DNA of 64,000 nucleotides from Brachyhypopomus gauderio (taxonomy: Eukaryota; Chordata; Actinopteri; Gymnotiformes; Hypopomidae), in assembly GCF_052324685.1 (NCBI RefSeq), contig NC_135225.1:8728915-8792914 (forward strand). The letters run 5' to 3'. The first letter of the stretch is position 1, and each line of letters starts with the position of its first letter. Below the pieces are notes generated by a model. It had not been told where the DNA came from. It saw nothing but the letters and a program-made list of their open reading frames with translations, and did no database searches. The position numbers were made by a program, and so were the translations under genes. Below, one piece after another: positions 4,137 to 29,378 of this stretch.

Positions 4137-29378
<25,242 letters not shown>

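Follow-up and report, generated by a model that had tools for sequence, protein, structure and literature searches.

The window analysed here is a stretch of 64,000 nt from Brachyhypopomus gauderio, and its forward (+) strand carries map4k5. Within an intron of the CNH region of this gene, AAG at 23284–23286 is in our judgement (probability about 0.93) a true 3-nt cassette microexon, included in some transcripts and skipped in others, which places one Glu between a Ser and a Gly of the CNH domain. Given the same optional residue across vertebrate databases, the microexon is very likely real and old. All coordinates below are those of the window, and all features described lie on the + strand.

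The microexon and its flanking exons

The upstream CNH exon (22741–22801; 100% identical to residues 572–592 of the Electrophorus protein) ends in phase 1 (TCA/G) at a GT donor, and the downstream CNH exon (23630–23744) starts with GG/AAG. Joined directly, the two exons read LSGKTF, and joined through AAG they read LSEGKTF. The intron between them (22802–23629) has GT...AG ends and is 828 nt long if the microexon is skipped. AG/AAG/GT at 23284–23286 is its sole AG-NNN-GT. The site reads CAG/AAG/GTAAAC, with a canonical AG at 23282–23283, whose nearest earlier AG is 117 nt upstream, and a canonical GT in the 5′ splice site GTAAAC (23287–23292). The three bases are added in phase, giving a Glu codon (G/AA) and preserving the next Gly codon (G/GG), and the exon falls within the definition of microexons as frame-preserving exons of 3–30 nt. 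The first-pass annotation had proposed these coordinates, bases and phase, and the change from LSGKTF to LSEGKTF through three in-phase bases; the sequence and its translation agree with it on each point.

The closest displayed relative of the CNH region in protein searches is Electrophorus electricus MAP4K5 isoform X1 (P0001; 97% identity over 353 residues), followed by Pygocentrus with 96%. In the alignment with P0001, the upstream exon ends at residue 592 and the downstream exon begins at residue 594; the single residue between the two is Glu. This Glu is encoded by neither flanking exon, and hence must come from within the intron here.

Chance was estimated from 2000 dinucleotide shuffles of the 828-nt intron. 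Shuffled introns are expected to hold 2.2 AG-NNN-GT of any kind. A Glu-giving AG-NNN-GT is expected 0.0275 times, and 2.7% of shuffles contain one or more; for a Glu-giving site flanked by YAG and GTRA the expectation is 0.0015 (0.15% of shuffles).

Glu in MAP4K5 proteins of relatives

Across three protein searches, 222 distinct representatives were displayed (90%-identity clusters; best 120 of thousands per search). This set is not unbiased, as the queries carried the Glu and many species are present with many isoforms; its taxa are vertebrates down to elephant shark, with lampreys and invertebrates absent from the rows. At the microexon site 52 rows have a single Glu, 162 have nothing, five have Ala, two have Val and one has a longer insert, so that Glu makes up 52 of the 59 single-residue rows. 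By row names, the Glu rows span 32 taxa, mostly teleosts, from elephant shark to primate. They include elephant shark (P0210), a frog (P0218), squamates (P0124, P0127, P0138, P0147 and P0173) and the primate Rhinopithecus (P0121, a cluster of 526) with the LSEGKTF form; the remaining ones are P0111, for which no organism is shown, and five contigs of the source lgn. The first-pass annotation had named LSEGKTF as the human form. This form was seen in the primate representative, human itself not being among the displayed rows, and we take it to be that of human MAP4K5 as well. Conservation in other fish had been set beforehand as a test of the microexon, and it holds at the protein level, the level compared, with Glu in many fish.

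Small insertions of other kinds also occur at or near this site. Displayed clupeiform rows (P0146, P0186, P0189, P0190 and P0199) have an extra Ser soon after it (GKTSFQ), and a Betta row (P0197) has a GSSSE insert at the site itself. Thus, the same spot has accepted other small insertions.

Alternative use and annotation

Both forms of the protein are present within single species. In three fish, the Glu is the sole difference between the members of four NCBI isoform pairs (Colossoma X1/X2, Tachysurus X1/X2 and X5/X6, Scleropages X1/X2); this is the cassette use of the exon as found in relatives. Pygocentrus X4/X5 differ by the Glu plus one other segment of 8 residues. Judging from their naming, these X-isoforms would be RefSeq models with transcript support. 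Moreover, seven rows come from the source lgn alone; their longest contigs are 2.6–4.1 kb, with open frames of 518–876 residues. Because map4k5 spans about 25 kb here, these contigs are most likely spliced transcripts. Five of the seven have the Glu (P0029, P0070, P0088, P0089 and P0191) and two do not (P0036 and P0091). Inclusion in mature transcripts is thus seen in relatives only, from NCBI isoforms with Glu and from five of seven transcript-sized contigs.

Annotation of the microexon varies among models. Ala stands at the site in P0025, P0026, P0031, P0037 and P0126, and Val in P0211 and P0212, and all seven are UniRef-only rows. When the acceptor CAG is read as part of the downstream exon in our window, the junction becomes LSAGKTF; a TAG acceptor would give Val. 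For Scleropages, Mastacembelus and Gouania, NCBI models carry Glu where the UniRef model of the same species has Ala or Val. The displayed NCBI rows of Anolis lack the inserted residue, and for Labrus the Ala/Val model is the sole row displayed. From sequence comparison, the Ala and Val models appear to be the 3-nt insertion misplaced by annotation software onto the CAG or TAG acceptor of the next exon. The first-pass annotation also held that gene predictors cannot model a 3-nt exon and that annotations silently drop it. This did not survive comparison with the NCBI X-isoforms, which include the Glu; some other models omit it and some seem to misplace it, and hence annotation is not simply dropping the microexon.

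Acceptor architecture

The acceptor of the microexon was compared with 26 other acceptors of map4k5. Its AG-free distance of 117 nt (median 49) is reached by two of the 26, and its pyrimidine fraction of 0.50 at positions −20 to −5 (median 0.69) is as low in two of the 26. TGCTGC at 23245–23250 supplies two TGC motifs lying 39 and 36 nt before the microexon, and five of the 26 have as many within 50 nt. The 120 nt upstream contain nine TCTC/CTCT, a number equalled or exceeded at three of the 26, and a C/T-rich tract with such motifs is found far from the acceptor, at 23174–23214. By pattern match only, two candidate branch points (yUnAy) have their A at 23253 and 23262. The poor acceptor tract, upstream C/T-rich block and TGC motifs pointed out in the first reading are therefore all present in measured form, and with its weak tract, CU-rich block, nearby UGC and long stretch free of AG the acceptor resembles those of SRRM3/SRRM4-dependent neural microexons.

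Gene identity and paralogues

Exons matching MAP4K5 are arranged in order from 4128 to 29375 and encode both kinase and CNH, as judged by window translation against relatives; the first coding exons were not found in this run. Ordered exons and a best match to MAP4K5 place the gene in the MAP4K5 class (GCK-I kinase with C-terminal CNH). Genome searches covered the 796.5-Mb assembly, in which the window sits on contig C15. A PF00780 search listed 23 CNH matches, none of them within map4k5, and a CNH hybrid search gave weak matches at just two of its eight loci.

The 59-residue peptide of the joined exons had nine matches in the genome at E up to 10, namely the two map4k5 exons, six matches at four paralogous loci and one further match (L017). 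No single match spans both exons, as a retrocopy of the spliced form would. The four paralogues (C128, C1, C14 and C18; L012, L015, L016 and L011/L014) have an intron at the same CNH place and in the same phase. These introns are short, with 132, 118, 116 and 86 nt versus 828 nt in map4k5, and none of the four contains a Glu-giving AG-NNN-GT; that of L015 has two AG-NNN-GT, yielding Val-Arg or Ala-Cys. The microexon looks MAP4K5-specific from these sequences, because four paralogues share the place and phase of the intron and lack a Glu-giving site, with L017 outside the comparison. Other CNH paralogues of this genome read S-G without insert, the intron being common to four of them, and the CNH domain of MAP4K1/HPK1 (PDB 8eec) aligns across the site and also reads S-G with no inserted residue.

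Two side observations concern the window. The frame of two conserved map4k5 CNH exons is broken by three 1-base homopolymer extensions (24775–24780, 25331–25334 and 25379–25381), at which relatives are intact; errors in the assembly consensus are a likelier cause than death of the gene. Downstream of map4k5, 31966–35556 holds another protein kinase gene, which we take to be probably cdkl1.

Discussion

Two accounts would do without a microexon. AAG may be a chance AG-NNN-GT in a gene that makes LSGKTF only, and the 2.2 such sites expected by shuffling and the 162 of 222 displayed relatives without Glu speak for this. However, the single site in the intron yields exactly the residue of the relatives, including that of the 97%-identical Electrophorus isoform X1, which only 2.7% of shuffles can offer. 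We rejected a chance site on this protein evidence, and consider it highly improbable. The other account takes the extra residue from a tandem acceptor that adds 3 nt to the start of the downstream exon. The seven Ala or Val models, and LSAGKTF upon absorption of CAG here, agree with such an origin, but it would yield Ala, whereas 52 rows have Glu; all seven models are UniRef-only, and NCBI has Glu in the three species named above. Moreover, there is no AG before the acceptor CAG, because the preceding three bases are TTC. With the second AG missing and the residue wrong, a tandem-acceptor origin was rejected as having next to no chance of being right.

A real microexon may still be unregulated and neutral in function, a tolerated change of length by one residue that is included broadly and noisily. 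Both forms are found in several species, many displayed lineages are without Glu, a loop can tolerate an insert of one residue, and adjacent positions vary in clupeiforms and Betta. Against neutrality, 52 of the 59 rows with a single residue have Glu, in taxa from elephant shark to primate, and the other seven look misplaced; in addition, the acceptor is built like those of regulated microexons. We regard neutrality as a possible but doubtful account of the exon.

Several observations weigh against a cassette microexon in this gene. The 162 displayed representatives without Glu include all bird rows and those of gar (P0122), bowfin (P0158–P0160 and P0192), bichir (P0213), paddlefish (P0171), coelacanth (P0177), platypus (P0123 and P0125) and caecilian (P0180); exon skipping, annotation that missed the exon, the choice of cluster representative or real loss may lie behind these rows. 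Inclusion in Brachyhypopomus gauderio itself we infer from the sequences of relatives. An AG gap of at least 117 nt occurs in 21% of shuffled introns, so the AG-free feature is weak by itself. A structure model from a 41-row alignment of near-identical MAP4K5 sequences had a mean predicted local distance difference test score (pLDDT) of 34.9 and was unusable. Finally, no word beginning with map4k occurs in the main texts, supplementary tables excluded, of five papers on microexons, two of them on zebrafish (PMC12626420, PMC12626424, PMC7821500, PMC7935315 and PMC4317164).

Three bases are too few for exon definition, and we therefore propose that the microexon would be spliced by definition of two introns in turn; an excerpt of PMC8378409 argues that very short exons need intron definition. 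UGC and branch-point elements of SRRM3/SRRM4 type upstream of the microexon would help its splicing, and PTBP on the distant CU tract would oppose it, with higher inclusion in neural or endocrine cells as the outcome. As excerpted, PMC8797185 describes a long AG-free zone, UGC, CU tract and weak acceptor as marks of eMIC-dependent exons in flies, and reports that, two features aside, mammalian eMIC targets show them as well. The map4k5 microexon resembles SRRM3/SRRM4 eMIC targets in all four; it differs in standing at the lower size limit with 3 nt, and is likened to them here by its sequence features. In addition, an excerpt of PMC4317164 reports that alternative micro-exons are low in thymine just upstream and have more of it beyond 20 nt. 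We would give the whole splicing scheme a little better than even odds. Neural control stays at plausible, because the acceptor features fit, but an AG gap of this length is common in shuffles.

In the CNH domain, the Glu follows LMSLS and precedes GKTFQLY, at what is probably a strand-turn-strand site. The added acidic residue might lengthen the turn between two propeller strands and tune contact with a CNH partner; we infer this more weakly than the splicing scheme, as a tentative suggestion. A neural-regulated one-residue CNH switch, kept since the jawed-vertebrate ancestor, in which Glu set by SRRM3/SRRM4 would change the response to a small GTPase or adaptor, is an unlikely combination in our view.

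If the Glu of elephant shark and that of bony vertebrates come from the same exon, the microexon dates at least to the jawed-vertebrate ancestor. The simplest history would then be an ancient shared intron in which the microexon was gained on the MAP4K5 branch before the split of shark and bony vertebrates.

Glu isoforms of MAP4K5 are already known in public annotation. The window gene is an orthologue of the vertebrate genes with such NCBI isoform pairs, with the same residue, the same place and the same optional use; those rows give protein only, whereas the 3-nt exon is here placed on the genome with its splice sites. In open-licence literature (supplementary tables excluded), MAP4K5 was not found together with SRRM4. 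MAP4K5 together with microexon was found there only in PMC8836038, the excerpt of which concerns Map4k5 circular RNAs and a reference title and is irrelevant here. Conserved 3-nt microexons are described in excerpts on human TLN1 (conserved in mammals; PMC4317164) and Drosophila homothorax micro-Ex8 (conserved in insects; PMC7392893). The map4k5 microexon is like both in its three bases and its conservation. We know of no larger exon around the map4k5 AAG, unlike in the prior 3-nt case compared.

AAG is among the smallest possible coding exons, and its single residue recurs in many fish, elephant shark among the displayed taxa, and in a frog, squamates and a primate. Models with Ala or Val where Glu is expected appear to carry a recognisable signature of annotation error, which may be used to find further hidden 3-nt exons. 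With one member of the kinase family carrying the microexon and paralogues sharing the intron without it, the family offers a clean test of whether a splice choice of one residue matters.
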